Shown here: piece by piece, positions 8,945 through 56,987 of the stretch
How positions within the stretch are numbered: position 1 is the stretch's first letter
Layout of the letters: every line of letters starts with the position of its first letter
Origin: Paramacrobiotus metropolitanus
Taxonomy: Eukaryota; Tardigrada; Eutardigrada; Parachela; Macrobiotidae
Assembly (NCBI RefSeq): GCF_019649055.1
Contig: NW_026570278.1
Coordinates: forward strand, 806,001-870,000
Direction: 5' to 3'
Length of the DNA: 64,000 nt
Notes under the pieces: model-generated
What the model saw: only the letters and a program-made list of their open reading frames with translations
What the model was told of the DNA's origin: nothing
The model's database searches: none
Made by a program: the position numbers and the translations under genes

Positions 8945-10920
8945 ATGTTCTGTTGTTGGCAAACTCCCGAGGCCGAATGCCCTCTCGACCGCGAGCGCCA
9001 GTACCCTTGGGACCACCATTACAGTCCATACCGTAAAGACTACGCGAAACTGGCGCATAACTTATATACGAAATATTTGGCCCGGCACAGTGGCTTCAGT
9101 CGGAATACGGTGGTATCCCCGTTGTGCGCTGAAATAGCGCTGCTCATGCTGCATGCCGGCGCTGACGATAAGGCAAAAAAGGAGATTGCCGAATTGTTGG
9201 GTGTGGATCCGCTGGACCTCACGGAGAGACTGTGCTCTGACCAATCCAATCTGAAGATGACAGAAGACGAGGACTGCGATCCTGATCACCCTTATGGTAT
9301 TGGTTTTATAGTTATAGATGCTCCTGCAGCATCACTTCACAGGATTTCTTTCTTTCTTGGGTTTGCTAAGATTAAAAAGCGAAGTTTTTTGTAGACATGT
9401 ATCAGCCTGTCGACAAGTTAATCAAATGTAAATATCTTGAGTACCACTCCATAAAATGTATAATACAAAGACATACAAGCATTTTTACCAATACGCGCCG
9501 CGCGTTACAAACACTTGGCATGGCTGTTGTCTAAAGAGAGCAAAACATTCGAATACGCCCGTATTTTTTAAACAAGAATACCCGTAATCCCCAGGTGACT
9601 GGACAAGAGCCGGTGCAGTAATGAACGATCTAACTGCGCAGAGGAATTTGCTTTGGGCGACCAGTTGGCCATCACAGTGAGCGCCAGCATCGCGTAATTA
9701 TGACTGTATCTAAGTTCCTTTATTTGCTGATTTGTTGACTAACTTTTTTTGCTGCTATTCACCGCTGGCGCTGTAGTACCGGCACACTTCCGGAAAACGA
9801 TTTTCTGTTTGGCTTTAATTTGGGATATTTTAGGAAAAAATGAAAACTTCCGTCTGTATTTGGCCAACGCGATACTGTTGTCGGAAGGTACTGACTGCGC
9901 CCAGGAGTTCGAGAAATTAAATATTAACTCGGATTTGCTGCCGCTGACGGTCACTACCGACAAGGAAAGCGTTACAGCGTTCATACGCGAACACACACTG
10001 GGACATGCCCACGACGTAGGACTGTCGCGTTGCGCACCGCAATATCCAACACTGATCAGCACACTGCATCTCCGCTCCAACTGGTACCGGCCCTTCAAGG
10101 GCGAGCGCACCTTTAAGATGCAGTTTGTCACTCCCGACGGTCGTCGCGTGGAAGTCGACGCGATACACGGGATTCGCAAAATCCCCTGCTGGGTACCCGA
10201 GGGGATGGGCGGAGCCAAATTCTTGCAAATGCTTTTTGAAGAAGATGGTAGTTGGAGCGCACTGTTCGTAATGCCGGGAGCCGCGCGGCAGACGTGGCGC
10301 GGCCCGACAAAACCGCAGACAATGAGCGAACTGATTAATCTTCTGACACCAGCGAGACTGGCTGGGGCTATTCGGCAAATGCTCTTCCACAAAGTCAACG
10401 AAGTGACGGTACAGATACCGAAATTTTTTGTGGAGCGGAATGTGGAAATGCAGGATATTTTGTGCGAAATGGGAGTGCGGACGCCGCTGAAATGCGGCTC
10501 TGATCAACCGGGTTCCAACGTAAACAGTATAATGCAGCACATTAGATTCGGTATGGACACTGCTCAGAACCGAAATGCCGGTTCTTTCAATCAGCGTTCT
10601 AAGCAATAAAATAAGATTGCATGGAATCAATGCTCTAAGAAACTTATGGAACATAAGAGCCTGTTTTACTGTTCTGAGAAATCAAGCAAACCTAAAATTT
10701 TCTGGCAAGTATTTAAATTCGTTTTCCAGGCATAGATGAACGCGGAGTAGGCAACGCGTTGCCCGAAAAAACTACTCGACCGATCCTGGATACCATGGAA
10801 ATTTGCGCCGTTTGGCACGCCGAGTTCGTTGCCAATAATCCGTTCATCTTCCTGGTTTATCACCACTTCACCGGCCATATCGCCTACATGGGACATATTG
10901 CCGATCCGGCAGCCATTTAG
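8945..10920 (+). CDS. Serpin (serine protease inhibitor family), three exons
   Basis: Exons 8945-9296, 9834-10550 and 10730-10920 join in phase through introns of 537 and 179 bp (GTATTGG...TTTTAG; GTATGGA...TTCCAG), giving 419 aa. Serpin signatures in order: NTVVSPLCAEIALLMLHAGA (helix B), ANAILLSEG, STLHLRSNWYRPF (strand 3A/4C region), and near the C-terminus NPFIFLVYHHFTGHIAYMG. The reactive loop follows the second intron: DERGVGNALPEKTTRPI. The hinge has Glu-Arg-Gly but Val where inhibitory serpins have Thr or Ser at P14, and the Ala-rich stretch is weak. The protein may therefore be a poor or non-inhibitory serpin. The start (MFCCWQT) is not a signal peptide, and the frame is open 30 nt further upstream, so an upstream exon is possible. 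Confidence 0.85.
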
Positions 10921-18606: not shown

Positions 18607-19143
18607 TCATTCCGTTAAAATCCGCCACGCTCCAGGTGTTGCCATCGCGATTTGGGACATAATATATCGCAATTTTAATTCAAACCCAACGAGTACATGG
18701 TTTAAGAAACAGCTAGTAAACAAGAGCTCATTAAACATTTCCGCTCTGCGGTGCCCAAAACAGAGGCGGTGTTGACATAATACCTTGCCCACAAATTCTT
18801 TCCGCGAAGGACTGCGACAACAGAAAGAGAGTCGGCCAATTTCTGGCCCTGGCGACGCTTGCGGTTTAACCAATCGCATACGCTGATACGGTACGTCCCG
18901 GGCAGTTGCTTCGTGATGACGGTACTGTCGGCAAAAGCTCCAGCGTAGTCGTTATAAATCAGTTTACAATTAGCCCTTGTTTTCTGCAGTGCATCCGTGG
19001 CACACTCTGTCCGTCCGATATTTCAGCAGCCAGGAACTGACTTGGAAACGTAAAGATCGCGACAAAAAGACCTTCTTTTCCATTTCGATCTGGCCTGATG
19101 AGAACAGCGTTGAGGCTAATCAAGCAAGTGACACTGTCTCGCA
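18607..19143 (-). pseudogene. Fragment of an unrecognised Cys-containing secreted-type protein
   Basis: On the minus strand an acceptor-like TTATTAG precedes 19143. The frame then reads protein-like (SVTCLISLNAVLIRPDRNGK) to about 19020 and continues in a different frame (CKLIYNDYAGAFADSTV ... GTYRISVCDWLNRKRRQG) to a stop near 18713. The change of frame inside continuous coding-like sequence suggests a frameshift. I recognise no family. A weakly similar segment lies on the same strand at 36324-36036, on the other side of the giant palindrome, so both may be parts of one gene. Confidence 0.35.
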
Positions 19144-19400
19144 CTAATAATGACTGTCGGTATGGTTGTGATTTTCGCTTTAGACGATTTAGAGTAATAC
19201 TATTCTTTTTGTTGTTTGGCTTTGTGTCTTGTGCATGACGCGCTGTATGCCCGTTTAAGCTAGGGTAACTCTGCGATATATTGCATCAGGCAAAGTGTAC
19301 GTATTTCTGCTGTTTAACGGAGGGTGGTGACTTGACTAGCCGTACCACATTGGATGTTCTTCGTGAATAATAATATTATGTGCTATTGCCGAATTGTACC
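19144..19400. other. Left flank of the giant foldback element
   Basis: No feature recognised. It includes the unduplicated target DNA left of the insertion. Confidence 0.4.
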
Positions 19401-19408
19401 CGGCTTGG
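19401..19408 (+). repeat. Left 8 bp target-site duplication (CGGCTTGG)
   Basis: CGGCTTGG immediately precedes the left arm terminus GGGTCGGCCAAC. The same octamer follows the right arm terminus at 35960-35967. Because the ends are G/C runs, a 9 bp reading (CCGGCTTGG with termini one base shorter) is equally possible. Confidence 0.7.
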
Positions 19409-21712
19409 GGGTCGGCCAACTTTGCCTTTGCCGTCCATTTGCCTTTGCCGCTTCAGTTTGCCGTTTTCAACTTTACCTTTACCTTTGCCGTCGGAAAAGC
19501 CGTTAGGGTTCCAATTTGCCGTTTCAGAACGCTGTCTGTAAAAGCCTTTGCCGTTTGAAAAACGAATTACCGTTAGCACATTGCCATTTCTTAACTTTTT
19601 TTGTGCGTTTCCGGTTTCACGGTTTTCCAAAATTATTCTAGGTATCTACGTTATGTGCACAGTCCGCGAAAGCTTTAAAGCTTTCGGTATTTTGTTTCTG
19701 TATACACCGCCATAATTAAGTTTCAAGAACAATGGTATAACAATGGTAGAACAATGGTGCAACAATGGTATAACATTGTACTGTACCAATACATACAGCA
19801 TAATCATTACCGTAGTCCAGAAAATGATTAAGTTAATGTTATCAGCACACCAGCAAGGTTATCCACACACTTCTAAGTTTACAACGTTAGATTGAAAAAT
19901 AATGATTTTCGTGAATCGGCGCAGATGATTAAGCTGATTACCTTACAGCAGCAAACGGACCCCCGCTGAGCGCCGACTGCAGTTGACCACTGCAGTTTGG
20001 GCGTCCAGCGGGTAACTAACGGATAACTGCAGTTAGTAAGTCCAGGGAACACTGCAAGACGTAACTGTGCACGCTACAATGCAACAGCATTTGAACCGTA
20101 TTTCACCGTTATAGTTTGTTAGTAGATCAAAAATAGAATTTTTATTTTAATTTAACAAATAATTAAATTAAATTAGGAAAATATATTTTCGATTAAATTA
20201 ATTATTAAATAATAATAAAATTAAATTATTTAATTAATTAATAATTAATTAAATTAATTTGATTAATTAATGGAATTAACTTGATCAACAAAATAATTCA
20301 AACTGACATATTTAAAAAAAATATTTGTTTTCAATAAGAGATATTGAGAAAAGATAATTATCAATGGCGTATATTTAATAAGTACAAAAAAGTTCATTCA
20401 TCATACGTGTAGCTAAGAATAAAATAATCCGGTTATGCAATTGGAAACAAATGCTTCAGTGACAATGCAATAAACCGCTAATAATTTGCCAGCTCATCGA
20501 TATACGACGCAATAAATGAAGAGATCACTGAACTGAAAAGCCGCCCTAGCTGCGGGTTTCATAATATGGTATGTCACTTGCAAGGCTGTCCACTGGTCCA
20601 GTTTTATCTGAAAATTTAACATAACAAATGGTTTTAAATATTATCTTTCACGCACCAGACTGAATGATGGAAAAATATTTAACAAAATTACGTACCTGCT
20701 GATAACACATTTGCAGCGATTATTGATATTTTGGCTTTTCACTTCATCTAAAAACTGCTTTTCTTTCTGCTGTCTAACGTAGGCTGTTCGATGAATCGAT
20801 CTGATAGCAACTTCCCGCTAACTTGCATCCGTTTACTGTAGAGTTGCAGATGATATTTACTTGCAACCTAAACACTGTCGATTATCCGAAACATCATTTC
20901 AACGTAATATTTTCCATTATCCATATTTCGAAACAGTTTATCTAGTTTAACTTACATGCGCAACAGGCCACACTCATTGTCAGTGTGCTCGGTAAAGTAG
21001 CACGTGAATCTGGACATGGACTCTGATTTATCGAACAGCGGTTCGAAGTTTTACTAGCGCACAGCGTAATGCTCGTCAGTAAGGATAGACATATAATCTC
21101 GCATGAATACACCATTCCTTAACTGGCGTTCCTTATTGTTGGCGAAGAAGAACTTCTTTGGCTCCCTGGTTTGTCCTCACAAGGTTGGCCGTTTTTTGTC
21201 TTCAGCTTTCTGTTGTAATTTCGGATCTGGTCTGTCCAATGACGCCCGGTTGGAACTATTTGGGGTGGAACAAGTTACTGTAGTTTGACCATGATAGCTT
21301 GACGACTTTTTTGCATCAATTTGGGACACTTAAACATGTTCTCCAGTTTTACAACAGCTTCACCATACAAGTACTGTTGCTGATGACAGAATTCTGCGTT
21401 TTACATTGCCTCCTCAAAGTACCTGTTGGTAGAGTCAATCAGCAGAATACCGCTTGGAATAAGGAAGCAACACACAGAAAGCTGTAAACGCATACTTACT
21501 GTAGTGTAAGTTCAACCAAACTCATGTTAGAAAATAATCCCACTTATATCTTCAGGTAGCGTTTATACAAACAAACTCAAGGTGCACAATATCTTGAAAA
21601 CCTATTTTAACACATCTTGCGTTCGACTATTTTTTTGTCTGTGTTAAGACAGTTTTGCCTCAAGAAAAAACAACCTGGTCTGAATGAAAAACTAAATCGA
21701 TTCAGCTGTGCG

Positions 21713-21720
21713 CTTATATA
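21713..21720 (-). promoter_or_regulatory. TATA box candidate, left arm copy
   Basis: TATATAAG on the minus strand, followed about 28 nt downstream by a TCATTCAG initiator-like sequence. The mirror copy is at 33551-33558. The sequence downstream shows no recognisable gene. Confidence 0.35.
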
Positions 21721-22976
21721 GGTTGCTGCTTAGCAAGACTGGTACTGTGATGCTGCGACATTTCGACACTCCGCCATTCTGTCGCAACCAGAGTAACAGA
21801 CTGTTAATATGTCTGGTAAATAGTAAACTCATTGGCAAGATGGACGCTTGTGCAATTGTCTGAGTAGCAGAGTGTCCGGGTGTTACAGTGTCAGAATGTC
21901 GAAATTGCGCCACGTGAATAAAATCGGCTCCGACGACTCAATAAAAGCGCCATTTGAGATTTTTCAACCGAGAGCATTCTTTTTGCATGGACGTGAATGT
22001 TTAGTGCTCGTAAGTTTTGCAAACGTTGGGAAAGCGATGGTGGAGTTCGCTCCATCTTGCCGATGGAGCGAACTTCACACCGACAGACCCAAGGAAAAAC
22101 ACGGTGAGATGTTTAATTGATTTAAGATACGCGTTTAACTAATTTCAAGACATTTTCTATCAGATGTTTAAAGTGGAAAGGAACTTAAAGGCAACGGCAC
22201 CACAGAAAGAGAATCTGACGGAGAAAGTTAACTTTATTCAATAAATACAGTCCATAATCTCAAACATTACATTTCGCCTTTGAGAAGACTCGTATATGTA
22301 GGAATATGACTGCAGCGCGTGCCCCAGCAACAAGAAGTAAAGGATATCCACAAGAAAAAAAGCCGTTTAACCAACGTCGCTCTAAGAAAACATTTTCGTG
22401 AGCTGCTAAAAAGCCTCTCTGATATCTTTCATGATTTAGCGCCTAGAATGTTGCATTTCCGTTATTAACAATTAATGCTGTGGCTTTGCTGGCATAAACA
22501 TAAAAATTGTCCATTAAGAATTTTATATTGCGTGCTTTCTAAATCGTTTTTATATTTATTAACTATTTTTTCAGCAAGATAGTTTTTTGTAATCATTTAA
22601 TTCTTTCAAAACTACGAATGCCGCTAGCCATCCGATCGATAGCCTGTTATACCCTTCACATAGATATGTCAATGTTTGCATTAGAAATAAATGCGTGGCA
22701 GTCGTCAGCGCACCAATGCCAGGTTGTTGTATGTGTGCATTTTGCTAAGTAATCTTTTCTGAATACTAAGCAGGTACGCTATCATGTACGCACGCTAATA
22801 AGTTCATGCCAAAGAGCGGCGGATCATCTTGACAAATTATTTTTCAACTTTTTTACTTTTACCCATCTGAACAAAAATGAAACTATTAGACCGCTTTTCT
22901 TTTGCTGAATTATCAGTTGCATTTGCTTAATATTATTACGACGATTTTAACTTTCTTGAAACAAATTCGTTAAAAC

Positions 22977-23084
22977 GGATATTGTTTAGTTTAAGCTATG
23001 TATTTTGTAACACAGATAATTTTGTGGAAAGGATATTGTTTAGTTTAAGCTATGTATTTTGTAACACAGATAATTTTGTGGAAA
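22977..23084 (+). repeat. 54 bp tandem duplication found only in the left arm
   Basis: GGATATTGTTTAGTTTAAGC... is present twice in direct repeat (units 22977-23030 and 23031-23084). The corresponding place in the right arm (about 32250-32310) has a single unit. This is a length difference between otherwise almost identical arms. Confidence 0.85.
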
Positions 23085-26000
23085 GATTTTTCATCAACCA
23101 AAAAATACTTTCGATTCATTCAATGAGAATAATTCTTTTTTATTTCCACTTACTCATCTAATAATAAGAGTGTGGATTGAATGAACTCTTTGAATATCTG
23201 GTTCTCCTCTAGAGTATTTGTCCACTTACGTACATTTGAAGCACTTTTCAGGCTTTTCCTATATGATCAACATAGTGCAGCATATATGCTCTTGTCTAAA
23301 AACAAAGCTTTGTAGTTAATAATATTCTTAATGGTAATGAAGGTAACTTTATTGAAGCTAAAATGGTTTACCTTTTTCTTTATCATCAGATAATTGATGG
23401 GTTAATTGTCCCACTGCATTCGTCATTAGGTCCATGGTTGCAGCATGAAACAGTTACCCACATCTACACCGGATTGGTTTTCAAGGCTCAAGGCGAGCCG
23501 ATAATGGAATCTGTACTCTTGGTTACAGTGAAAATGAATGTACTCTGGCATTTGTGTCTTCTTTGACTCGTTAAGAGCTATTAGAAGTCGCTTTTTTAAT
23601 TTTGTCTTGTCCACGGGCATCGGCTAGATATTTTTTCTATTCGGATGCGATCAATTAAATTTAGTTATCCAGTTACTTAGGTATCTATATTAACACCACT
23701 TGCGCTCTACGAGAGAACAATTTTTTTTAACGCAAGGTTTGTTAAGACAGAAATTCATGTAACAAATGACTTGGATAATGCAGTACGAGTGTGTTCCTGG
23801 TCATGCTCACTTTTGTCAAGTACAGTAATTGTTTGGAGAAACACTGATTGAATAAACAGCGTAGTGGGTTTGACTCCCGACTTATATACTTACTTAATGG
23901 TAAACAAATTCATTCTGCGACACCTTGATTTTTTGCCATTCTAATCATGCTTCGGGGCGACACCAATAAAAGTGTAAAATCGGCAAACACTCCTTGTGGC
24001 GGAGTATTAGATCTGTAATTTCAAAGTTAAAAAACAACTGCTTATTGGAATTATTTCACATATCACATATTAAACCTGCGGTTAAAGATTGCTTCGGGTG
24101 GCTAGCCATCAAACAGGTTAGGCCTAAAAAGTACACTGTCAACCGGTTTATTAGCTTGCTTAAATAGTAATGAGTATCAAAAATTTTTGCAAATGTCGCC
24201 ACTGAATCGCAAGTATAAGGTATTGATATAGAGGCTTCCGAAGCGCGCACGGTGCAACGTTGTAATTTCATCTTTTTTAGTTTTTCGGAAGTGTATTGAT
24301 TCAGTACAAAATACAGTTTTGACAAGAACAAAAAGGGGATTGCTGGAGGGTAACACACGCTTTTGCAGTCTTTAATTTTTGTTGTTGCTGATCTCGAGTT
24401 TCGAATGTTCTACGTAGATCATTACCAGTGGGTACTTGATTACGTCAACTTAGTGGTATATTTTAACGATTCATGGATTTGGCAATATAAAACTTGGTCA
24501 AGCACAGGTCACGTTAACACAAATATTTTCACACTTTGTGACTCTTTATAGTACAATTTGGCGATTCTTGCATAATTCTTGTATACAGTTGTGTTAATCG
24601 CTACTAAGATTAACAAAGACCGAACCGAACCGAAACTAAATTTGATACAGGTCACGATTGTATACTAGAGCTGTAAAATTATGAAAATTGAACTCGTAGT
24701 CAGAGAAAAATATTACTTGCAGCATCCGATCTACGTTTCGAGTTACGTTACTAACAGTATCTCTAGTGTTATGAGTTATAACGGGAGTCACGCTATAGTA
24801 AAAAATTCACCGGGTTATTCGTTTTGCGAGTAATTTGTTACATGGGTATCGCTATAGATAAGTCTGAAAATTTACGTTTGAACAATAGAATGCGCTCTTT
24901 GAAATGCCCACAGTAATATCCATTGATTTTTGACAATATAAATCAAAACAATTAGGTACCGTGATTGACAATCTTTTCCATCGCGCTGTAAATCAGGTTT
25001 TCGTTCAAAACCATAGCAAACAACACTGCTACAAACTGCTGTTACGATTTCAATAACAAATCTGTAATACGGTTTACAGTGACATTTGTTCCTGACACTA
25101 GCTGATAACTTCTTTATATTGAACTGTGGAAGTGATATAATTGCAGTTTATAGTCAGCCGTAAGCCACTGAAAATAATTGCACAGCTTATTGCACAAAAC
25201 ACATTCACCCGGAAAACAGTCCATTGTTTTAACTCAAAGAACTTTACCGGCGAAAGTTAACGGCGTTCCAACTAGAACGTCGTTTTATATATGAAAAAGC
25301 GCGACCTGCTTTTGAAATAATTTTGTTAATTTTTAAAAAACTTCTAATAATTCCATCTGTCGTTGAACCTGATTCCTGAAAACTCGTGTCATTGGCCCAT
25401 GGTAATTTTGCTGTGACTATCAAGTCAGTATAAAATTTTTCAAAAACCAATGCTTTTTAATCTTTACCGCTGCTGCCGTTCTCAATAAGTATAGTGCTAC
25501 CTTTTAACCGCTGTGGCTTTTTTAAAGTTGGGTGTTGAGCTGACTACCAAAGCTTGAGGTTAGAAAAAAGTTTGCTAATTTCCCATGCCATGATGCCATA
25601 AAAAACATCACCTTGAACCTTGAATTTCCGGCACTGTTGAGTGACGGCAACATACGGGCTAATTATTCTCTGGAAAATTACTTGCACTAGAACTAGTTAT
25701 TAATATGTTCAGTGAAAATTAACAGCTTTTAGAGCTTCTTTAAAACTTTTTTACAGTTGGGCAGTTAAACAGTCCTTCATGAAGTTATGTTTTTGTCGGC
25801 CAAGTCGTCAATTTTTATTAATGAGCAATTATTAATAATGGGTTTCGAGCTTCGATTTCCTCGCAGAACTGTCTCGAGCGATAATATCAGCATTATTATG
25901 ATAATTATGCAAACAGAAGCCGCTGCCACAGACGCACTATTTTTGCACGTAATGTAAGCCATTATGCAATTCCATGCAGCGGTTATTTCATGCGGATTTG

Positions 26001-27538
26001 GCAGGTTTTTCGGCTTAAATTCGATAGTCTCTCGAAAGATCATTGTAAACGCGACGTGAAGGACAAATAATCGTGGGTGTATAATTCATGCGAACGACAA
26101 GTTATTGTGGATATGCCGTTTGAAAGAAACTTTATGGCTGGCTTGCTTACTTTTCTGCCCTGTAATGTTGATTTGAAATCCTATTTGGTCAAACAAATTA
26201 CTGAGAAATTGTGACTGGACCATAAAAATATAACTATCGAGACCCAAAATAGTGTACGCGCCAAAGTTATGGTGCATGTGCAAACTTATTTAACGGTGTG
26301 AGATGGCCCGCGTGATTGCTGTTATTTCGAAAGTGCGGTTTAAACTTACTGAGTGTACTGGAGCTATTATAATTAGTTACTTTGCGTATGGATTATATTG
26401 TGCAATATGGTTTGTTCGAAAACGTTAATGCCTTACGCCACAAACACCTGGCTGATATGAAGTTGTAGTCAGCTGCTGGTCCTCTCAGATTTTTTCTAAA
26501 TTTAATTTCATTGATCCACTTTGATTCAAAATAAGTATTGCCAAATGAAATATCTTGTCGTCCGATTTATTGTGCCGTTTAAAGCGACATGCAGTAAACT
26601 TGCTGAGGTAATCACGTTTTTATAAAACACACTAGTCGATTTCGTTCGACATTGCATGATTTTCGAAAAAATAAGTACCTAACATTTTCTCAACGCATAT
26701 GCATCTTGGCAAACTTAATTTGATACAGTGCACTTATAGACGTTTCGTTTTTAAAATGTGCCACAACTGCAATGCATGTATGATGTATACTATTTTTTTA
26801 AGCTCAAAATGATTACATCAGCTCCTGCAGCCTTATAAATCGCTTTTCACGTAGAAAAATAAAAAATGAGTAATGTCATCAGCCAACTCTTTCTGACTTT
26901 TTCTTGTTTTTCACTTTCAATAAGGCACATAGCGGTAAATCACATGCTTTCTGCGATTTGTTAAATTCTGGCATGGGCGGAATTTTTGATTGACGGATTT
27001 TATACCTGGTTTATTCAGCGCCTAGGACATCAAGCCATGAATAAATCTAATCCAACTCAAGCAGTTAGTGCGCTGATTTTCGCCGTTTTGCGACTACCGA
27101 TACTGCCTCAACTAACAGGAGCGCTTGTCTCAAAAGATTCTCGTGGAGAGTACGGAGTATGGACATATTACAGTAGCCGTGAGCAACAGCGCAACACTTA
27201 ATGCATTTCCTTGGCACATATTCACAGTTATCTGACAAGAATCTGAATATAAGTACGGATATCATTAACGAATCTCGTTATTTTTAAGCAGTTTACCCTG
27301 CCTTTTTTTCCGCCTTAGCTTAACGATGAAACATTTTGCTTGAGAGCGTATAAAGGCTTATTGCAACACCGCTGAAGAATTTGCGTAATTGTTCTGCAAT
27401 AAGCCTACGGTCTACTCAGATCAGTGAGTAGGCCTGTTGCTGGAATGCTGCTCAGACCAGTAAGGCTCCAGGTCGGACGCGGGGTGTGGGCGCCCCGTGT
27501 TCTTCTATCGACACGGTTGGGGAACCGTAACAGATATG

Positions 27539-27590
27539 GTAAACAATAGGCGACAGGGGCGCTTCGTGCCCTCGGTCGCCTATTGTTTAC
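27539..27590. repeat. Hairpin near the centre of the palindrome (16 bp arms)
   Basis: GTAAACAATAGGCGAC (27539-27554) and its inverse (27575-27590) enclose a GC-rich loop with GGGGCGCTTCGTGCCC. The mirror copy lies at 27762-27813. Nearby AGGCTTATTGCA...TGCAATAAGCCT and CTACTCA...TGAGTAG pairs make this inner 300 bp hairpin-dense and much richer in GC than the rest of the arm. It may be a separate small insertion present in both arms. Confidence 0.8.
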
Positions 27591-27669
27591 GGGACAAGAG
27601 TAAATGTGTCAAGTTTTTCATACGCTTTAAGGCTTTGTTGTGCAACAGTTTTCTTTGACGCTTATGTTT

Positions 27670-27684
27670 GTAACAAATAAACTA
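27670..27684. repeat. Central spacer of the giant palindrome (15 bp)
   Basis: CTTATGTTT (27661-27669) and AAACATAAG (27685-27693) are the innermost paired bases. Only 15 bp (GTAACAAATAAACTA) separate the two 8.3 kb arms. Confidence 0.8.
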
Positions 27685-30600
27685 AAACATAAGCTAAAGA
27701 AAACTCAAGCGCAACAAAGCCTTAGAGCGTATGAAAAACTTGACACATTTACTCTTGTCCTGTAAACAATAGGCGACCGAGGGCGCGAAGCGCCCAGGTC
27801 GCCTATTGTTTACCATATCTGTTACGGTTCCCCAACCGTGTCGATAGAAGAACACGGGGCGCCCACACCCCGCGTCCGACCTGGAGCCTTACTGGTCTGA
27901 GCAGCATTCCAGCAACAGGCCTTCTCACTGATCTGAGTAGACCGTAGGCTTATTGCAGAACAATTACGCAAATTCTTCAGCGGTGTTGCAATAAGCCCTA
28001 TACGCCTCAAGCAAAATGTTTCATCGTTAAGCTAAGGCGGAAAAAAGGCAGGGTAAACTGCTTAAAAATAACGAGATTCGTTAATGATATCCGTACTTAT
28101 ATTCAGATTCTGTCAGATAACTGTGAATATGTGCCAAGGAAATGCATTATGTTGCGCTGTTGCTCACGGCTACTGTAATATGTCCATACTCCGTACTTCC
28201 ACGAGAATCTTTTGAGACAAGCGCCCTGTTAGTTGAGGCAGTATCGGTAGTCGCAAAACGGCGAAAATCAGCGCACTAACTGCTTGAGTTGGATTAGATT
28301 TATTCATGGCTTGATGTCCTAGGCGCTGAATAAACCAGGTATAAAATCCGTCAATCAAAAATTCCGCCCATGCCAGAATTTAACAAATCGCAGAAAGCAT
28401 GTGATTTACCGCTATGTGCCTTATTGAAAGTGAAAAACAAGAAAAAGTCAGAAAGAGTTGGCTGATGACATTACTCATTTTTTATTTTTCTACGTGAAAA
28501 GCGATTTATAAGGCTGCAGGAGCTGATGTAATCATTTTGAGCTTAAAAAAATAGTATACATCATACATGCATTGCAGTTGTGGCACATTTTAAAAACGAA
28601 ACGTCTATAAGTGCACTGTATCAAATTAAGTTTGCCAAGATGCATATGCGTTGAGAAAATGTTAGGTACTTATTTTTTCGAAAATCATGCAATGTCGAAC
28701 GAAATCGACTAGTGTGTTTTATAAAAAACGTGATTACCTCAGCAAGTTTACTGCATGTCGCTTTAAACGGCACAATAAATCGGACGACAAGATATTTCAT
28801 TTGGCAATACTTATTTTGAATCAAAGTGGATCAATGAAATTAAATTTAGAAAAAAATCTGGAGAGGACCAGCAGCTGACTACAACTTCATATCAGCCAGG
28901 TGTTTGTGGCGTAAGGCATTAACGTTTTCGAACAAACCATATTGCACAATATAATCCATACGCAAAGTAACTAATTATAATAGCTCCAGTACACTCAGTA
29001 AGTTTAAACCGCACTTTCGAAATAACAGCAATCACGCGGGCCATCTCACACCGTTAAATAAGTTTGCACATGCACCATAACTTTGGCGCGTACACTATTT
29101 TGGGTCTCGATAGTTATATTTTTATGGTCCAGTCACAATTTCTCAGTAATTTGTTTGACCAAATAGGATTTCAAATCAACATTACAGGGCAGAAAAGTAA
29201 GCAAGCCAGCCATAAAGTTTCTTTCAAACGGCATATCCACAATAACTTGTCGTTCGCATGAATTATACACCCACGATTATTTGTCCTTCACGTCGCGTTT
29301 ACAATGATCTTTCGAGAGACTATCGAATTTGCCGAAAACCTGCCAAATCCGCATGAAATAACCGCTGCATGGAATTGCATAATGGCTTACATTACGTGCA
29401 AAAATAGTGCGTCTGTGGCAGCGGCTTCTGTTTGCATAATTATCATAATAATGCTGATATTATCGCTCGAGACAGTTCTGCGAGGAAATCGAAGCTCGAA
29501 ACCCATTATTAATAATTGCTCATTAATAAAATTGACGACTTGGCCGACAAAAAAACATAACTTCATGAAGGACTGTTTAACTGCCCAACTGTAAAAAGTT
29601 TTAAAGAAGCTCTAAAGCTGTTAATTTTCACTGAACATATTAATAACTAGTTCTAGTGCAAGTAATTTTCCAGAGAATAATTAGCTCATGTTGCCGTCAC
29701 CAACAGTGCCGGAAATTCAAGGTTCAAGGTGATGTTTTTTATGGCATCATGGCATGGGAAATTAGCAAACTTTTTTCTAACCTCAAGCTTTGGTAGTCAG
29801 CTCAACACCCAACTTTAAAAAAGCCACAGCGGTTAAAAGGTAGCACTATACTTATTGAGAACGGCAGCAGCGGTAAAGATTAAAAAGCATTGGTTTTTGA
29901 AAAATTTTATACTGACTTGATAGTCACAGCAAAATTACCATGGGCCAATGACACGAGTTTTCAGGAATCAGGTTCAACGACAGATGGAATTATTAGAAGT
30001 TTTTTAAAAATTAACAAAATTATTTCAAAAGCAGGTCGCGCTTTTTCATATATAAAACGACGTTCTAGTTGGAACGCCGTTAACTTTCGCCGGTAAAGTT
30101 CTTTGAGTTAAAACAATGGACTGTTTTCCGGGTGAATGTGTTTTGTGCAATAAGCTGTGCAATTATTTTCAGTGGCTTACGGCTGACTATAAACTGCAAT
30201 TATATCACTCCACAGTTCAATATAAAGAAGTTATCAGCTAGTGTCAGGAACAAATGTCACTGTAAACCGTATTACAGATTTGTTATTGAAATCGTAACAG
30301 CAGTTTGTAGCAGTGTTGTTTGCTATGGTTTTGAACGAAAACCTGATTTACAGCGCGATGGAAAAGATTGTCAATCACGGTACCTAATTGTTTTGATTTA
30401 TATTGTCAAAAATCAATGGATATTACTGTGGGCATTTCAAAGAGCGCATTCTATTGTTCAAACGTAAATTTTCAGACTTATCTATAGCGATACCCATGTA
30501 ACAAATTACTCGCAAAACGAATAACCCGGTGAATTTTTTACTATAGCGTGACTCCGTTATAACTCATAACACTAGAGATACTGTTAGTAACGTAACTCGA

Positions 30601-33600
30601 AACGTAGATCGGATGCTGCAAGTAATATTTTTCTGACTACGAGTTCAATTTTCATAATTTTACAGCTCTAGTATACAATCGTGACCTGTATCAAATTTAG
30701 TTTCGGTTCGGTTCGGTCTTTGTTAATCTTAGTAGCGATTAACACAACTGTATACAAGAATTATGCAAGAATCGCCAAATTGTACTATAAAGAGTCACAA
30801 AGTGTGAAAATATTTGTGTTAACGTGACCTGTGCTTGACCAAGTTTTATATTGCCAAATCCATGAATCGTTAAAATATACCACTAAGTTGACGTAATCAA
30901 GTACCCACTGGTAATGATCTACGTAGAACATTCGAAACTCGAGATCAGCAACAACAAAAATTAAAGACTGCAAAAGCGTGTGTTACCCTCCAGCAATCCC
31001 TTTTGTTCTTGTCAAAACTGTATTTTGTACTGAATCAATACACTTCCGAAAACTAAAAAGATGAAATTACAACGTTGCACCGTGCGCGCTTCGGAAGCCT
31101 CTATATCAATACCTTATACTTGCGATTCAGTGGCGACATTTGCAAAAAATTTTTGATACTCATTACTATTTAAGCAAGCTAATAAACCGGTTGACAGTGT
31201 ACTTTTTAGGCCTAACCTGTTTGATGGCTAGCCACCCGAAGCAATTCTTTAACCGCAGGTTTAATATGTGATATGTGAAATAATTCCAATAAGCAGTTGT
31301 TTTTAACTTTGAAATTACAGATCTAATACTCCGCCACAAGGAGTGTTTGCCGATTTTACACTTTATTGGTGTCGCCCTGAAGATGATTAGAATGGCAAAA
31401 ATCAAGGTGTCGCAGAATGAATTTGTTTACCATTAAGTAAGTATATAAGTCGGGAGTCAAACCCACTACGCTGTTTATTCAATCAGTGTTTCTCCAAACA
31501 ATTACTGTACTTGACAAAAGTGAGCATGACCAGGAACACACTCGTACTGCATTATCCAAGTCATTTGTTACATGAATTTCTGTCTTAACAAACCTTGCGT
31601 TAAAAAAAATTGTTCTCTCGTAGAGCGCAAGTGGTGTTAATATAGATACCTAAGTAACTGGATAACTAAATTTAATTGATCGCATCCGAATAGAAAAAAT
31701 ATCTAGCCGATGCCCGTGGACAAGACAAAATTAAAAAAGCGACTTCTAATAGCTCTTAACGAGTCAAAGAAGACACAAATGCCAGAGTACATTCATTTTC
31801 ACTCGTAACCAAGAGTACAGATTCCATTATCGGCTCGCCTTGAGCCTTGAAAACCAATCCGGTGTAGATGTGGGTAACTGTTTCATGCTGCAACCATGGA
31901 CCTAATGACGAATGCAGTGGGACAATTAACCCATCAATTATCTGATGATAAAGAAAAAGGTAAACCATTTTAGCTTCAATAAAGTTACCTTCATTACCAT
32001 TAAGAATATTATTAACTACAAAGCTTTGTTTTTTAGACAAGAGCATATATGCTGCACTATGTTGATCATATAGGAAAAGCCTGAAAAGTGCTTCAAATGT
32101 ACGTAAGTGGACAAATACTCTAGAGGAGAACCAGATATTCAAAGAGTTCATTCAATCCACACTCTTATTATTAGATGAGTAAGTGGAAATAAAAAGAATT
32201 ATTCTCATTGAATGAATCGAAAGTATTTTTTTGGTTGATGAAAAATCTTTCCACAAAATTATCTGTGTTACAAAATACATAGCTTAAACTAAACAATATC
32301 CGTTTTAACGAATTTGTTTCAAGAAAGTTAAAATCGTCGTAATAATATTAAGCAAATGCAACTGATAATTCAGCAAAAGAAAAGCGGTCTAATAGTTTCA
32401 TTTTTGTTCAGATGGGTAAAAGTAAAAAAGTTGAAAAATAATTTGTCAAGATGATCCGCCGCTCTTTGGCATGAACTTATTAGCGTGCGTACATGATAGC
32501 GTACCTGCTTAGTATTCAGAAAAGATTACTTAGCAAAATGCACACATACAACAACCTGGCATTGGTGCGCTGACGACTGCCACGCATTTATTTCTAATGC
32601 AAACATTGACATATCTATGTGAAGGGTATAACAGGCTATCGATCGGATGGCTAGCGGCATTCGTAGTTTTGAAAGAATTAAATGATTACAAAAACTATCT
32701 TGCTGAAAAATAGTTAATAAATATAAAAACGATTTAGAAAGCACGCAATATAAAATTCTTAATGGACAATTTTTATGTTTATGCCAGCAAAGCCACAGCA
32801 TTAATTGTTAATAACGGAAATGCAACATTCTAGGCGCTAAATCATGAAAGATATCAGAGAGGCTTTTTAGCAGCTCACGAAAATGTTTTCTTAGAGCGAC
32901 GTTGGTTAAACGGCTTTTTTTCTTGTGGATATCCTTTACTTGTTGCTGGGGCACGCGCTGCAGTCATATTCCTACATATACGAGTCTTCTCAAAGGCGAA
33001 ATGTAATGTTTGAGATTATGGACTGTATTTATTGAATAAAGTTAACTTTCTCCGTCAGATTCTCTTTCTGTGGTGCCGTTGCCTTTAAGTTCCTTTCCAC
33101 TTTAAACATCTGATAGAAAATGTCTTGAAATTAGTTAAACGCGTATCTTAAATCAATTAAACATCTCACCGTGTTTTTCCTTGGTCTGTCGTGTGAAGTT
33201 CGCTCCATCGGCAAGATGGAGCGAACTCCACCATCGCTTTCCCAACGTTTGCAAAACTTACGAGCACTAAACATTCACGTCCATGCAAAAAGAATGCTCT
33301 CGGTTGAAAAATCTCAAATGGCGCTTTTATTGAGTCGTCGGAGCCGATTTTATTCACGTGGCGCAATTTCGACATTCTGACACTGTAACACCCGGACACT
33401 CTGCTACTCAGACAATTGCACAAGCGTCCATCTTGCCAATGAGTTTACTATTTACCAGACATATTAACAGTCTGTTACTCTGGTTGCGACAGAATGGCGG
33501 AGTGTCGAAATGTCGCAGCATCACAGTACCAGTCTTGCTAAGCAGCAACCTATATAAGCGCACAGCTGAATCGATTTAGTTTTTCATTCAGACCAGTTGT

Positions 33601-35959
33601 TTTCCTTGAACGTACTTACAGCTTTTTTACAAAGAAATTGACTGTCAGAAAAAGCAGCCCGTTGCAAGAAAGTTCATCTGAGGCAAAAATGTCTGTCTTA
33701 ACACACCTTGCGTTCGACAATGCGCAAAAAATAGTCGAACGCAAGATGTGTTAAAATAGGTTTTCAAGATATTGTGCACCTTGAGTTTGTTTGTATAAAC
33801 GCTACCTGAAGATATAAGTGGGATTATTTTCTAACATGAGTTTGGTTGAACTTACACTACAGTAAGTATGCGTTTACAGCTTTCTGTGTGTTGCTTCCTT
33901 ATTCCAAGCGGTATTCTGCTGATTGACTCTACCAACAGGTACCTTGAGGAGGCAATGTAAAACGCAGAATTCTGTCATCAGCAACAGTACTTGTATGGTG
34001 AAGCTGTTGTAAAACTGGAGAACATGTTTAAGTGTCCCAAATTGATGCAAAAAAGTCGTCAAGCTATCATGGTCAAACTACAGTAACTTGTTCCACCCCA
34101 AATAGTTCCAACCGGGCGTCATTGGACAGACCAGATCCGAAATTACAACAGAAAGCTGAAGACAAAAAACGGCCAACCTTGTGAGGACAAACCAGGGAGC
34201 CAAAGAAGTTCTTCTTCGCCAACAATAAGGAACGCCAGTTAAGGAATGGTGTATTCATGCGAGATTATATGTCTATCCTTACTGACGAGCATTACGCTGT
34301 GCGCTAGTAAAACTTCGAACCGCTGTTCGATAAATCAGAGTCCATGTCCAGATTCACGTGCTACTTTACCGAGCACACTGACAATGAGTGTGGCCTGTTG
34401 CGCATGTAAGTTAAACTAGATAAACTGTTTCGAAATATGGATAATGGAAAATATTACGTTGAAATGATGTTTCGGATAATCGACAGTGTTTAGGTTGCAA
34501 GTAAATATCATCTGCAACTCTACAGTAAACGGATGCAAGTTAGCGGGAAGTTGCTATCAGATCGATTCATCGAACAGCCTACGTTAGACAGCAGAAAGAA
34601 AAGCAGTTTTTAGATGAAGTGAAAAAGCCAAAATATCAATAATCGCTGCAAATGTGTTATCAGCAGGTACGTAATTTTGTTAAATATTTTTTCCATCATT
34701 CAGTCTGGTGCGTGAAAGATAATATTTAAAACCATTTGTTATGTTAAATTTTTCAGATAAAACTGGACCAGTGGACAGCCTTGCAAGTGACATACCATAT
34801 TATGAAACCCGCAGCTAGGGCGGCTTTTCAGTTCAGTGATCTCTTCATTTATTGCGTCGTATATCGATGAGCTGGCAAATTATTAGCGGTTTATTGCATT
34901 GTCACTGAAGCATTTGTTTCCAATAATTGCATAACCGGATTATTTTATTCTTAGCTACACGTATGATGAATGAACTTTTTTGTACTTATTAAATATACGC
35001 CATTGATAATTATCTTTTCTCAATATCTCTTATTGAAAACAAATATTTTTTTAAATATGTCAGTTTGAATTATTTTGTTGATCAAGTTAATTCCATTAAT
35101 TAATCAAATTAATTTAATTAATTATTAATTAATTAAATAATTTAATTTATTATTATTTAATAATTAATTTAATCGAAAATATATTTTCCTAATTTAATTT
35201 AATTATTTGTTAAATTAAAATAAAAATTCTATTTTTGATCTACTAACAAACTATAACGGTGAAATACGGTTCAAATGCTGTTGCATTGTAGCGTGCACAG
35301 TTACGTCTTGCAGTGTTCCCCTGGACTTACTAACTGCAGTTATCCGTTGGAGTTACCCGCTGGACGCCCAAACTGCAGTGGTCAACTGCAGTCGGCGCTC
35401 AGCGGGGATCCGTTTGCTGCTGTAAGGTAATCAGCTTAATCATCTGCGCCGATTCACGAAAATCATTATTTTTCAATCTAACGTTGTAAACTTAGAAGTG
35501 TGTGGATAACCTTGCTGGTGTGCTGATAACATTAACTTAATCATTTTCTGGACTACGGTAATGATTATGCTGTATATATTGGTACAGTACAATGTTATAC
35601 CATTGTTGCACCATTGTTCTACCATTGTTATACCATTGTTCTTGAAACTTAATTATGGCGGTGTATACAGAAACAAAATACCGAAAGCTTTAAAGCTTTC
35701 GCGGACTGTGCACATAACGTAGATACCTAGAATAATTTTGGAAAACCTTGAAACCGGAAACGCACAAAAAAAGTTAAGAACTGGCAATGTGCTAACGGTA
35801 ATTCGTTTTTCAAACGGCAAAGGCTTTTACAGACAGCGTTCTGAAACGGCAAATTGGAACCCTAACGGCTTTTCCGACGGCAAAGGTAAAGGTAAAGTTG
35901 AAAACGGCAAACTGAAACGGCAAAGGCAAATGGACGGCAAAGGCGAAGTTGGCCGACCC
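27685..35959 (-). repeat. Right arm of the giant inverted repeat
   Basis: Mirror image of the left arm. Differences read directly: a one-base shorter run at about 30208 (GGAGTG against GGAAGTG on the left), a single 54 bp unit, extra sequence of some tens of bp at about 33600-33730, and several substitutions in the outer 240 bp. The minus strand frame 32151-31756 (131 codons) is intact here but broken on the left arm. I recognise no homologue. Confidence 0.85.
33551..33558 (+). promoter_or_regulatory. TATA box candidate, right arm copy
   Basis: TATATAAG, with TCATTCAG about 28 nt downstream. A second candidate is TATATAAG at about 31442, with TCAATCAGTG further down. Both are followed within about 200 bp by TTAACA(A/C)ACCTTGCGTT sequences, at 33696 the start of a hairpin. 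Function unproven. Confidence 0.35.
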
Positions 35960-35967
35960 CGGCTTGG
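35960..35967 (+). repeat. Right 8 bp target-site duplication (CGGCTTGG)
   Basis: Direct copy of 19401-19408, directly after the right arm terminus. Flanking sequence then differs (CGACTCAATAC against the left-side context), as expected for an insertion. Confidence 0.7.
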
Positions 35968-36035
35968 CGACTCAATACACAACCAAAGAATCCATCAATC
36001 AATCAATGCCGCGTACAGATAATAATTCACAAAAT

Positions 36036-36324
36036 TCATCTGCAAATAAATAACTTTTTCTCCGCATACGTTTTCGCAAACTTCCTGTACATTTCCGGTT
36101 TTACGCATTGGGTTAGTTGGTGGCTGTCGACAGTCTGTTGACTTTGTATGGTTAAAAGCGATTGCAGAAAAACCAACGCGTCGCATTTCGTGCAGCTTTC
36201 CGTCAGTGTCAAAGATAAACTGTAGACAAACAAAAAGGGAAATCACTTTTCGTGGCTCAACGTAAACGCAGGTTTTACTTTTTGTAGCACTTTTCCAAGA
36301 ACCTGTTTTCACAAGCTTGTTCAT
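36036..36324 (-). CDS. Possible coding fragment right of the foldback element
   Basis: Minus strand open frame from ATG 36324, with protein-like content (FIFDTDGKLHEMRRVGFSAI, then QEVCENVCGE). An acceptor-like TTTGTTTGTCTACAG sits inside it before TTTATCTTTG, so the 5' part may be intron. The stretch DGK...VGFSAIAF is weakly like DRNGK...LFVAIFTF in the fragment at 19143-18607. Family unknown; exon limits not settled. Confidence 0.3.
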
Positions 36325-36610
36325 TCAAACAACAAGTGAACTGAAGAAACTTCCGGATCGACAGACTCAGCATCTACATATTTCACTGCGAGAACGGCTA
36401 GTTTAAAGACCGGGATTTGATGGCGTAAACAGATATGACTTCCATAGCTGCTCTCTTTACTCAACCATCATCCAGAATGCTCTCGAAAAATTTCGCCGAA
36501 CAAAAGTTAGCGCTATATTAAATGCTGTACAACAAACTGGTTGTTTTTGTTTGAAGTTGTCTGCGATAAGAATTTGCCAGTTTAAGTGACGGTCATCCAC
36601 AAACATCACA

Positions 36611-39900: not shown

Positions 39901-40400
39901 CAAAAACAGATGAGTTCGGCGAAGATAAGGAAGAGTTGTCAACAGGCTGCACTGCCACATAAATGCGATATCAGTTAACAACACCCACATTCTGCTTCTC
40001 TTTATATACGCGCTTGTCACGTTAATTTTGCAGAGGAATGCAACATCTAGTGCTACTGCCAATCAGCCGGTCAGTGTCACCAATTAGTATTTAATAAACA
40101 TGCGCCTGACACCACCAGGCACCGCGCTTATAATGCTTGTCCGCAGTTTAGATTATACGATTGCCAAGTTGTCCGTTTATTGGAAAAATTAATACAAGCA
40201 AAACATGAGTGCCCCAAGGAAAAGCAACGTCTGCATGAAGAAATGAATCAGGAATGCACGCTAATTAAGCAAACGTTGCCACATAAATAAACACCATACA
40301 CCGATGAACCTGAAAACAGAACGTGACTGCCGTGACATTGTGTACAGTGTGATTACCGGTTTGGTGCGCGTACCAAGAACGTTACGTATCCATTTCACGA
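39870..40400 (-). repeat. Left arm of a head-to-head inverted duplication
   Basis: The reverse complement of this segment matches about 41010-41545. Landmarks: GCACCGCGCTTATAATGC (about 40120) against GCATTATAAGCGTGGTGC (41273); CCCCAAGGAAAAGCAACGTC (40211) against GACGTTGTTTTTCCTTGGGG (about 41180). Similarity is high near the genes and fades toward the centre at about 40700. The arms diverge by substitutions and small indels, so the duplication is not recent. Confidence 0.75.
40001..40008 (-). promoter_or_regulatory. TATA box of the decayed inverted copy
   Basis: TATATAAA on the minus strand, about 100 bp upstream of the lost start at 39900. It sits at the place homologous to 41407-41414. 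Confidence 0.5.
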
Positions 40401-41009
40401 ACAGATCCATTGCGGATGTAGTAATAAGTAATTATGCTTTTTATCAATAAATATAGATGTTTAATGTTCAAAATCATGTTTCTTGACACCAATATTAAAT
40501 TATTCATGCCACTGGCATTGCTTGTTAGAAGATTTTTTCCCTGACGTTGTACAAGCCGCAGGGTTCTGCCGATTTCACTAAGCTGCCTAATTCAGGAGAT
40601 ATTGATATTTCATTTACTGTACTTACTTATGTACGTAGTGTGCGCTAAATACATATTTGTGTACTGATACGAGCCCGTTTCAGAAACTGGTTCTCTTAAA
40701 CAAAAAAATGCCAGTTCACGGCACTCGCTCCCAGTGAGATGTCCCAGTTACAAGTGTGCGTACTGGCGCTTATCGTCGCGTTGTCCCGCGCAAACTTGCG
40801 TTGGGTAGTGCAAGAAAAAAGCCTAGCGTATATTACAAGTATTAACGGGTGTGCGGGACTTTACCAAGTCAACGGCCGATAAATAATTTTACAGACACTT
40901 TAGAAACACAACAATAGGCCGAACCCATTTTGTCTTCCGGGTTCAATTAGCTAGTCAGTGTCACACTATCAATAGTAAACAGGACACATTGCTTATTATA
41001 TCGCGCATT
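40401..41009. other. Centre between the two inverted arms
   Basis: No gene seen. It contains 40443 AATAAATATAGATG and otherwise unremarkable sequence. Confidence 0.4.
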
Positions 41010-41545
41010 GCATGTATTTGGGAATCGGATACAAAACACTGTAATTATGCGCAGCACACCGTCAATCACACAATATTAATTGCACACTGAGCTGTCACCG
41101 GATATATGGTTGTCTTGCATTAACTTAGTGGCAACGTCTGCTTAATTCCCGACACTTTTCACTTAATTCATGGAGCAGACGTTGTTTTTCCTTGGGGCAC
41201 TCGTGCTTTGCTTGTATCAATGTTTTCGATACGCGAAAAATTTGTTAATCGAACAAATTATATGCATGGGCTAGCATTATAAGCGTGGTGCCTGGTGGCG
41301 TCTGGTGTCTGCCTTATTAAATGTTAATTGGTGAGACTGACCGACTGATTGGCAGCAGCACAGAAGTTTCATTCATCGGCAAAGTTAAGGCGACAAACAG
41401 AGCCATTATATAAGGAAATGCAAAGTTACCAGCGCTGTTAACTGATACAACATCTACCTGGCGCTGCATTCTGCTGTCCACACTTTTCCTATCGTCTCAG
41501 AGTTCTCTTGTGTATTATGGATTCGACCGCTGCTATCATAACGCT
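41010..41545 (+). repeat. Right arm of the head-to-head inverted duplication
   Basis: Counterpart of 39870-40400. It includes the promoter and the start of exon 1 of the intact TIL gene. Confidence 0.75.
41407..41414 (+). promoter_or_regulatory. TATA box of the TIL inhibitor gene
   Basis: TATATAAG, 103 bp upstream of ATG 41517, conserved in position in the inverted duplicate. Confidence 0.55.
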
Positions 41546-47611: not shown

Positions 47612-48022
47612 TGCTAGCCGCTAAACGCTCATAACGCGTCCCAAGGGGAACCGCTAATGCTAATAACGCGCTGCCAGTCGCGTGTGGATGCGTGGATGCG
47701 CATGACCGGCGCGTGCACCTGTTGTTCATGCTATTGCATAACTAACTTTCATTCTTCATGGGAAGTGTATCGATAGTCTTGGGTGGTATGTTGGAAAGTG
47801 TGATAACTTAGAGGAATGTCCTTGGAAACGCTGTGAACTGTATGCATTGGCATGTGGCTAGACGGTCCCATTTTGTGGTAGTGTGCTTTTGGCGGAAATG
47901 ATGGAATGATTCTGACTTTACGATCGGTGCAGAATACGCTTTACGATATTAAACGACTTAACATTCGTTGTTGGAGTGTATCGTAAAAGGACATTAGACG
48001 TGCTGCGTAGATACGGGTAACA
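47612..48022 (+). repeat. 5' LTR (411 bp)
   Basis: Begins TGCTAGCC, ends GGGTAACA (TG...CA). Base-by-base reading shows no difference from the 3' LTR at 56573-56983, implying very recent insertion. Confidence 0.95.
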
Positions 48023-48025
48023 TAT

Positions 48026-48043
48026 TGGTGCCGAAACCGATTC
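48026..48043 (+). other. Primer-binding site (tRNA complement)
   Basis: TGGTGCCGAAACCGATTC begins 3 nt after the 5' LTR. TGG complements the CCA end of a tRNA. I could not assign the tRNA species. Confidence 0.7.
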
Positions 48044-48326
48044 AGGAAACTTATGAGTTTGGGATTTTAATAATTGCCATTAATTCCTAATACGCGGTAC
48101 GTCTGTTTTCGCTGTGTATACGATACGCAGCAGTGGAAGTTTTCAGTCTAATAATTTTGCGATTTAACCTGTTGATCGTATTCCTGTGTGTTGTGACACA
48201 CTGTGGATTATCATCAGGCCGATTTTGTGGTTTTATCTGCCCCTTATTTCCAACGTTGTCCACAGTCCGGAACGAAACGTGAGTAAATACCTTGCCGTTC
48301 CCGTGATAATTACGTAGGTTGCCAGA

Positions 48327-48707
48327 ATGTCAACAAGTGGAACCACTACATCTACCCACACGCCCACCTACACTTCCCAGCCAATAACGACGGCAACGCA
48401 TACATCATCAAGCACGGGAACCGCGCAACTCCACAGTCCTCGTGAGCTGGCAGCAGAACTGGATACGTTGCACCTAGCCGGACCAGCGCGGATATTGGAG
48501 GTGTTCCAGGGATTGGCGAAAGACGACGTTGTGGCGTGGCTGCGCCGATTCGAGACGATGGCACTGGCGCAGCGCTGGGACGACGAGCGGAAGATAACTC
48601 AAGCATCTATCCTGCTTGCGTCAACTCCGCTATCTGGTGGGACAGAGTCACCGATGACGGCACCCGGCAGCCATACAACACCTGGCGGGAGTTCAAGGCG
48701 GCAATAA
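48327..48707 (+). CDS. gag: Gag N-terminal portion of the LTR element (first frame)
   Basis: ATG 48327 opens a Ser/Thr-rich leader (MSTSGTTTSTHTPTYTSQ) and then a capsid-like helix region (VVAWLRRFETMALAQRWDDE). Around 48610-48640 the capsid similarity leaves this frame and continues in the frame of the long ORF (-1 relative), while this frame runs to a stop at 48707. The switch lies within the capsid domain and no slippery heptamer is visible. An indel (real or sequencing) is therefore more likely than programmed frameshifting. Confidence 0.8.
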   Translation: MSTSGTTTSTHTPTYTSQPITTATHTSSSTGTAQLHSPRELAAELDTLHLAGPARILEVFQGLAKDDVVAWLRRFETMALAQRWDDERKITQASILLASTPLSGGTESPMTAPGSHTTPGGSSRRQ

Positions 48708-56527: not shown

Positions 56528-56559
56528 CCTTCCCTTCCTTTTGGAGGACCAAAAGTCTT

Positions 56560-56570
56560 AAGGAGGGGGA
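56560..56570 (+). other. Polypurine tract
   Basis: AAGGAGGGGGA ends 2 nt before the 3' LTR. This is the expected plus-strand primer site. Confidence 0.85.
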
Positions 56571-56572
56571 TA

Positions 56573-56983
56573 TGCTAGCCGCTAAACGCTCATAACGCGT
56601 CCCAAGGGGAACCGCTAATGCTAATAACGCGCTGCCAGTCGCGTGTGGATGCGTGGATGCGCATGACCGGCGCGTGCACCTGTTGTTCATGCTATTGCAT
56701 AACTAACTTTCATTCTTCATGGGAAGTGTATCGATAGTCTTGGGTGGTATGTTGGAAAGTGTGATAACTTAGAGGAATGTCCTTGGAAACGCTGTGAACT
56801 GTATGCATTGGCATGTGGCTAGACGGTCCCATTTTGTGGTAGTGTGCTTTTGGCGGAAATGATGGAATGATTCTGACTTTACGATCGGTGCAGAATACGC
56901 TTTACGATATTAAACGACTTAACATTCGTTGTTGGAGTGTATCGTAAAAGGACATTAGACGTGCTGCGTAGATACGGGTAACA
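56573..56983 (+). repeat. 3' LTR (411 bp)
   Basis: Apparently identical to the 5' LTR, TG...CA termini, followed by GAAC (TSD, 56984-56987). Confidence 0.95.
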
Positions 56984-56987
56984 GAAC

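Follow-up and report, generated by a model that had tools for sequence, protein, structure and literature searches.

A 16.5-kb palindrome in Paramacrobiotus metropolitanus: a foldback element with a nested Maverick/Polinton fragment, probably duplicated in place

How a nearly perfect palindrome of 16,551 bp came to lie between two copies of a single octamer is the question raised by a stretch of the genome of the tardigrade Paramacrobiotus metropolitanus (contig NW_026570278.1, positions 806,001 to 870,000; hereafter the window, 64,000 nucleotides in all, located at C58:806001-870000 in the 170 Mb and 533 contigs that were searched). According to the original prediction, the whole palindrome had been transposed as one unit, and no described kind of element fits it. 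The evidence presented below points instead to a foldback element that was hit by a Maverick/Polinton and whose left half was then duplicated in inverted orientation in place, replacing the right half. This history is considered probable, at roughly 0.65.

The palindrome is present in the assembly with the coordinates and junctions predicted. Its arms, of 8261 bp on the left (19409-27669) and 8275 bp on the right (27685-35959), are separated by a 15-bp loop (GTAACAAATAAACTA, 27670-27684) flanked by 10-bp stems, and the symmetry ends, as had also been predicted, at termini bordered on both sides by the same octamer, in the order CGGCTTGG, GGGTCGGCC ... GGCCGACCC, CGGCTTGG. The inverted alignment consists of an outer block (19408-21635 against 35960-33726, 99.2% over 2237) and an inner block (21667-27656 against 33603-27696, 98.1% over 6000), and 8118 of 8375 columns are identical in the gapped arm-to-arm alignment. 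This full alignment overturned arms of 3.6 kb, since a megablast self-comparison had shown just the outer 3.6 kb. The left arm carries a 54-bp tandem duplication at 22977 that is not found in the right arm, and the right arm retains about 90 bp that the left arm lacks near 21636-21674. The central 301 nt are predicted to form a single hairpin of -152 kcal/mol, compared with a shuffle mean of -34, which in the folding model is far beyond chance.

Both the last ~224 bp of the left flank and the right flank have matches in dispersed repeats, and these matches abut with an overlap of exactly 8 bp at C7, at C58 (near 904.7 kb) and at C19 (near 1433.4 kb). In the empty-site alignment, a single CGGCTTGG stands at C7 and a single CGGTTTGG at both the C58 and C19 sites. 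At C321 and C136 both flanks match nearby without abutting, and many genomic places match only one flank. Because of the 8-bp overlap at three paralogous empty sites, the reading of the octamer as a target-site duplication is upheld: an element with GGGTCGGCC foldback ends was inserted here into a dispersed repeat, creating the 8-bp duplication.

The outer ends of the palindrome match a family with duplications of the same 8-9 bp class. At least 45 matches to a 301-bp end query were found in the genome, including the window's two, from the scoring of 40 among 146 candidates. A pattern of 24 end bases with at most 3 mismatches occurs 97 times in the whole genome (57 forward, 40 reverse), against 0 for its reversed control. 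The 24 places taken from the 301-bp query, as 25 stretches, comprise 18 both-ended and 6 one-ended copies. When the window copy is counted with the former, perfect duplications surround 11 of 19 (9 of 8 bp and 2 of 9 bp, the window copy included), and the remaining ones are weaker: three 7/8, one 6/8, one 5/8 and three 3-4/8, the last three apparently representing one duplicated segment. Further copies of the ends with duplications of their own, which the original prediction proposed to look for, therefore exist, but 17 of the 18 are only 312-1765 bp long and one, at C155, is 11,472 bp. In a self-comparison of 11 copies, eight (L021, L022, L025, L030, L032, L033, L036 and L039) have arms 81-96% alike over 218-394 columns, and L020, L029 and L031 have shorter paired stretches; the spacer inside the outer ~220-390 bp inverted part is non-symmetric (8 of 11). 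In window coordinates, arm symmetry reaches ~19700-19730 in L020-L022 and ~19805 in L032 and L033. Judged by sequence, the GGGTCGGCC ends are thus those of a family of short foldback elements resembling miniature inverted-repeat transposable elements (MITEs), in the Mutator/Foldback style, and the earlier view that no described kind fits is not supported.

Excerpts on Tm1, a Mutator/Foldback family of root-knot nematodes, describe long inverted repeats, 8-10 bp target-site duplications and nested insertions (PMC3169594). The window family is alike in being foldback/MITE-like, with long inverted repeats and 8-bp-class duplications. The Tm1 ends are asymmetric 7-bp motifs in these excerpts, whereas the GGGTCGGCC ends are symmetric, and the 14-bp repeat motif of Tm1 was not noticed in the arms by eye, no dedicated search having been made (PMC3169594). 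The GGGTCGGCC family also differs in not being tied to any transposase. None was recognised inside the palindrome, in agreement with the prediction, and among 39 genome-wide matches to Mutator-like elements (MULEs) no autonomous GGGTCGGCC copy with a MULE transposase was shown; 4 of the 39 have a family end within 7 kb (lists compared by hand), and 3 of these 4 are outside short copies, apparently in one duplicated segment. L024, L026 and L027 are similar foldback copies with common flanks, each located 4.7-6.1 kb from a MULE transposase match, and look like one duplicated segment.

Intact family ends on both sides, the perfect 8-bp duplication and the paralogous empty sites are also what would be expected if the 16.5-kb palindrome had been transposed as a unit by whatever moves GGGTCGGCC foldbacks, and an 11.5-kb relative with a perfect duplication exists at C155. 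The original foldback insertion accounts for the duplication equally well, however, and the C155 copy, which has a reverse-transcriptase open reading frame (ORF), may be a nested product too. The palindrome's middle turned up nowhere else in the genome, although cut-and-paste movement would leave none. It is accordingly regarded as unlikely that the palindrome was transposed as a unit, and the specific version in which a foldback shell with a captured half Maverick was moved, so that a MITE-type transposase would have mobilised palindromic virus-like DNA, is still harder to credit. If such a move were true, foldback ends could carry very large cargo. The C155 copy itself (L034/L035, C155:246179-257650) has the same foldback ends and contains, in addition to the reverse-transcriptase ORF, a 287-bp direct repeat pair that is 99.7% identical.

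The closest foldback, L020 (C8:446686), matches the arm at 84% over 548 columns, the match stopping at 19946, and the 5' spacer up to this point occurs on both sides of the palindrome. The 3' spacers of L020, L022 and L033 were not found in 19000-36500, except for matches of 38 bp and 21 bp to L033; in this comparison, the piece taken from L021 extended barely to its spacer. The foldback's own complete central spacer is thus not present, only the mirrored 5' part. Movement of the entire palindrome as a single unit is therefore not supported: a mirrored 5' spacer stands where a 3' spacer would be, the middle has no second copy, and the facts fit an in-place duplication after two insertions.

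About 540 bp inside each palindrome end a second element starts, and on both sides its left end directly adjoins foldback 5' spacer sequence. The arm sequence from 19947 on is similar to the left end of an element of 19.6 kb located at C5:2056614-2076193 (in blocks as far as 22494, 74-82%; just inside the end, 82% over 111 columns). AGCAGC at 19947 aligns by eye with AGTAGT of the C5 copy, the motif being degenerate. The ends of the C5 element are AGTAGT and its 6-bp duplication is CATAAT, both read by eye. Among 10 of its longer frames are an integrase (E 3e-15), two frames with PolB at E 2e-11 and 2e-10, a BIR domain at E 3e-6 and, below the cut-off, a match to an A32-type ATPase (E 0.002). 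Excerpts from PMC8097293 describe the end motif, the 6-bp duplication and the genes for Maverick/Polinton elements, and by these traits the C5 element is a Maverick/Polinton. One of its genes has a frame-broken relative in both arms. A protein look-up of one Maverick gene gave no match, and that of the kinase ORF gave one weak match.

A further Maverick segment lies close to the palindrome centre. In L014, its counterpart sits immediately before a frame for an adenovirus-type protease (Pfam Peptidase_C5, E 4e-6); the frame on its other side is taken as the major capsid gene by position only, without a Pfam match. The 52-bp hairpin within the segment is kept in nine Maverick loci, L011-L019, and the C5 copy has a matching stretch; it is possibly a terminator or a processing signal. 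An older inverted pair as the source of the central repeat was rejected, because each of L011-L019 (nine 3.1-kb loci, several near-identical) holds a single copy.

The window Maverick is a fragment, not a full member. It shares the left end with the C5 relative, which has (AGT)2//(ACT)2 ends, a 6-bp duplication, PolB and integrase, but lacks a right end, its own duplication and any convincing match to the PolB, integrase or ATPase frames of C5. Matches of the C5 frames to the arms are confined to the region left of 22500 and the segment at 27.5 kb, and elsewhere are at chance level (best E 0.018); no PolB, integrase, protease or capsid gene was found in the arms. No 6-bp direct repeat surrounds the Maverick ends, which are preceded by CCTTAC on the left and followed by GTAAGG on the right, reverse complements of each other. 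Two candidates for further giant copies were rejected: at C37 the two Maverick-like ends point in the same direction, and at C191 the match is limited to an AT-rich stretch. The 6 kb upstream of a Maverick at C69 gave no match to the arm.

Palindromic defective genomes are known to arise from replication, as in the snap-back genomes of adenovirus. A head-to-head defective Maverick might similarly have formed during extrachromosomal replication and then integrated, and it would agree with this origin that, going by the C5 match within the terminal repeat, the Maverick has a left end on both sides, and that Mavericks are described as having a protein-primed PolB and adenovirus-like features (excerpts, PMC8097293). 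However, the mirror symmetry continues past the Maverick ends through the foldback spacer, and simple integration should have given the 6-bp direct repeat that is missing at these ends. Such an origin is very improbable.

In the favoured history of in-place duplication, a Maverick would have been inserted into the foldback after ...CCTTAC, and a later break in the nested element would have left a 3' end near 27.66-27.69 kb. This 3' end may have folded back on a short imperfect inverted repeat, priming synthesis back along the left half, and copying would have passed the Maverick end and continued into the 5' spacer and arm of the foldback. The copy could then rejoin the right side within the foldback's 3' arm, which is nearly the same sequence inverted, so that the right Maverick half and the 3' spacer would be replaced and the palindrome formed in place with the original duplication kept. 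The same product would result from copying in the reverse direction, and also from a strand invasion that started in the right arm and ended with microhomology joining. The mirrored 5' spacer and the reverse-complementary CCTTAC/GTAAGG flanks are expected if the right side was replaced by a left copy rejoined in the inverted arm. Since two ordinary insertions and one inverted duplication explain the main features, transposition of the unit is not required.

Yeast offers documented cases of fold-back priming beside inverted repeats (excerpts, PMC10622511). The yeast fold-back inversions resemble the window in their inverted duplication, short central inverted repeat and repeat-mediated later steps (excerpts, PMC10622511, PMC10164571), and such a central repeat, with a 10-bp stem and 15-bp loop, is present here. 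They differ in passing through hairpin-capped or dicentric chromosomes (PMC10622511, PMC10164571), whereas the window copy appears to have rejoined the same chromosome via the foldback arm. At columns 19697 and 19709, where 5' and 3' arms tend to differ, the 5' state is found in both arms of the window palindrome. The side was guessed for L036 and L024 in this comparison, and the evidence, though thin, would place the joint further out.

Differences between the arms are distributed in zones (counts omitting the last 30 bp before the loop). The outer 540 bp contain 5 substitutions and 0 indels, the next 2552 bp 2 substitutions, 12 indels and 2 mixed events, and the next 4900 bp 1 substitution, 29 indels and 5 mixed events; in the inner 240 bp, 5 substitution events were counted and no indel. 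The middle of 7452 bp thus has 3 clean substitutions, 41 indels and 7 mixed events, 26 of the indels being of 1-2 bases beside a short run; by grouped counts the outer zone (p=7e-5) and the inner zone (p=1.5e-6) both differ from it. Its mismatch spectrum also differs from that of a long terminal repeat (LTR) pair elsewhere in the window (4 mismatches, 1 gap; p=8e-4). The middle is probably near-identical DNA that was poorly polished, short reads mapping to both arms, while the ends would be truly different, and the divergence of the outer zone may have been inherited from the older foldback arms. That the outer 540 bp differ more between the arms than the middle argues against a unit move, although it would lose this force if the middle was homogenised later.

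The palindrome is known from assembled sequence, and it is unusual for a chromosome to retain a 16.5-kb palindrome of such near-perfect symmetry. It is known that hairpin reads can arise as artefacts. Either one chimeric fold-back read or a wrong join made via the inverted foldback arms could also account for a middle in which small indels prevail over substitutions, unlike the LTR pair. Nevertheless, the two sides have different flanks with a duplication matched by empty sites, substitutions separate the arms in the outer and inner zones, and the 54-bp duplication and the ~90 bp are each confined to one arm; a single chimeric read would presumably bring far more errors. An assembly artefact is accordingly judged improbable.

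Several points weigh against the in-place history. Two of the 4 clean substitutions in the supposedly copied sequence (19792 and 19960) fall in the first 232 of 7672 bp, with a chance of ~0.005; the inner 240 bp are more diverged than the middle, though the nine relatives show no older inverted pair there; and the 30 bp adjoining the loop contain several blocks in which the arms are unlike. If the middle was converted from arm to arm at a later time, the zoning would be accounted for at least as well, and it would then be no argument against unit transposition; given the crowded substitutions and the inner zone, it backs the in-place history weakly. Relative to L020, the Maverick entry point is ambiguous (position 1019 by BLAST, ~1061 by eye), and the Maverick's original right half is postulated rather than seen. 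Finally, 4.9 kb between the Maverick parts has no detected relative, so a Maverick label for the whole arm is not justified. No other copy of 22500-27400 was found in the genome, the longest frame there (117 aa) was exceeded in 10 of 60 rough dinucleotide shuffles, and Pfam comparison of four frames of the arms gave one match, below the cut-off (E 0.086). Extra or decayed Maverick DNA and host DNA are candidates for its origin. This segment and the inner divergence remain outside the explanation.

Within a partial coverage of the literature, by titles and abstract openings, no palindromic half-Maverick inside a foldback is described. If the proposed history is real, the inverted arms of a foldback and a nested virus-like transposon have jointly made a long near-perfect palindrome inside a chromosome, and foldbacks can enlarge their inverted arms through repair rather than transposition. 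Such a case would also caution against taking a target-site duplication on both sides of a giant palindrome as proof that the palindrome itself was mobile. The features are listed in Table 1.

Table 1. Parts of the palindrome and its borders, in window coordinates
Feature	Position	Strand	Basis or remark
Target-site duplication, left copy, CGGCTTGG	19401-19408		Single copy at three paralogous empty sites
Foldback 5' part: arm to ~19700-19805 depending on the relative, then part of the 5' spacer	19409-19946	+	L020 match, arm alignment
Decayed Maverick/Polinton left end, end AGCAGC	19947-22494	+	Homology to C5 copy; frame-broken relative of the L055:3500-4060 gene
Segment without other genomic copy apart from a ~130-bp dispersed repeat, no coding signal	22495-27457	+	Genome comparison, ORF test
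Maverick segment preceding the protease gene in L014, with 52-bp hairpin (27539-27590)	27458-27604	+	75-77% to L011-L019
Palindrome centre, 10-bp stem GCTTATGTTT/AAACATAAGC around the 15-bp loop 27670-27684	27660-27694		Possible fold-back priming site
Mirror copy of the preprotease segment, hairpin 27762-27813	27748-27894	-	Inverted alignment
Mirror copy of the 4.9-kb segment	27895-32781	-	Inverted alignment, genome comparison
Mirror copy of the Maverick left end	32782-35421	-	Inverted alignment, C5 homology
Mirror copy of the foldback 5' part	35422-35959	-	Family's own 3' spacer not found
Target-site duplication, right copy, CGGCTTGG	35960-35967		Single copy at three paralogous empty sites

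Elsewhere in the window, Rfam and tRNA scans gave no lead, and matches to chemoreceptors (Srsx, Srw) are present. Two open frames at 8945-10609 are serpin-like, an inverted repeat pair (280 columns, 78% identical, ~0.8 kb apart) lies at 40014-41396, and a tandem array of 10.5 copies of an 84-bp unit with 92% matches occupies 58592-59472. The LTR pair used for comparison belongs to a Gypsy-type retrotransposon at 47612-56999, whose 427-bp LTRs are 98.8% identical. Its single frame of 2663 aa contains gag, protease, reverse transcriptase, RNase H and integrase, followed by ~870 residues beyond the last Pfam match that match no Pfam family at E 0.01.

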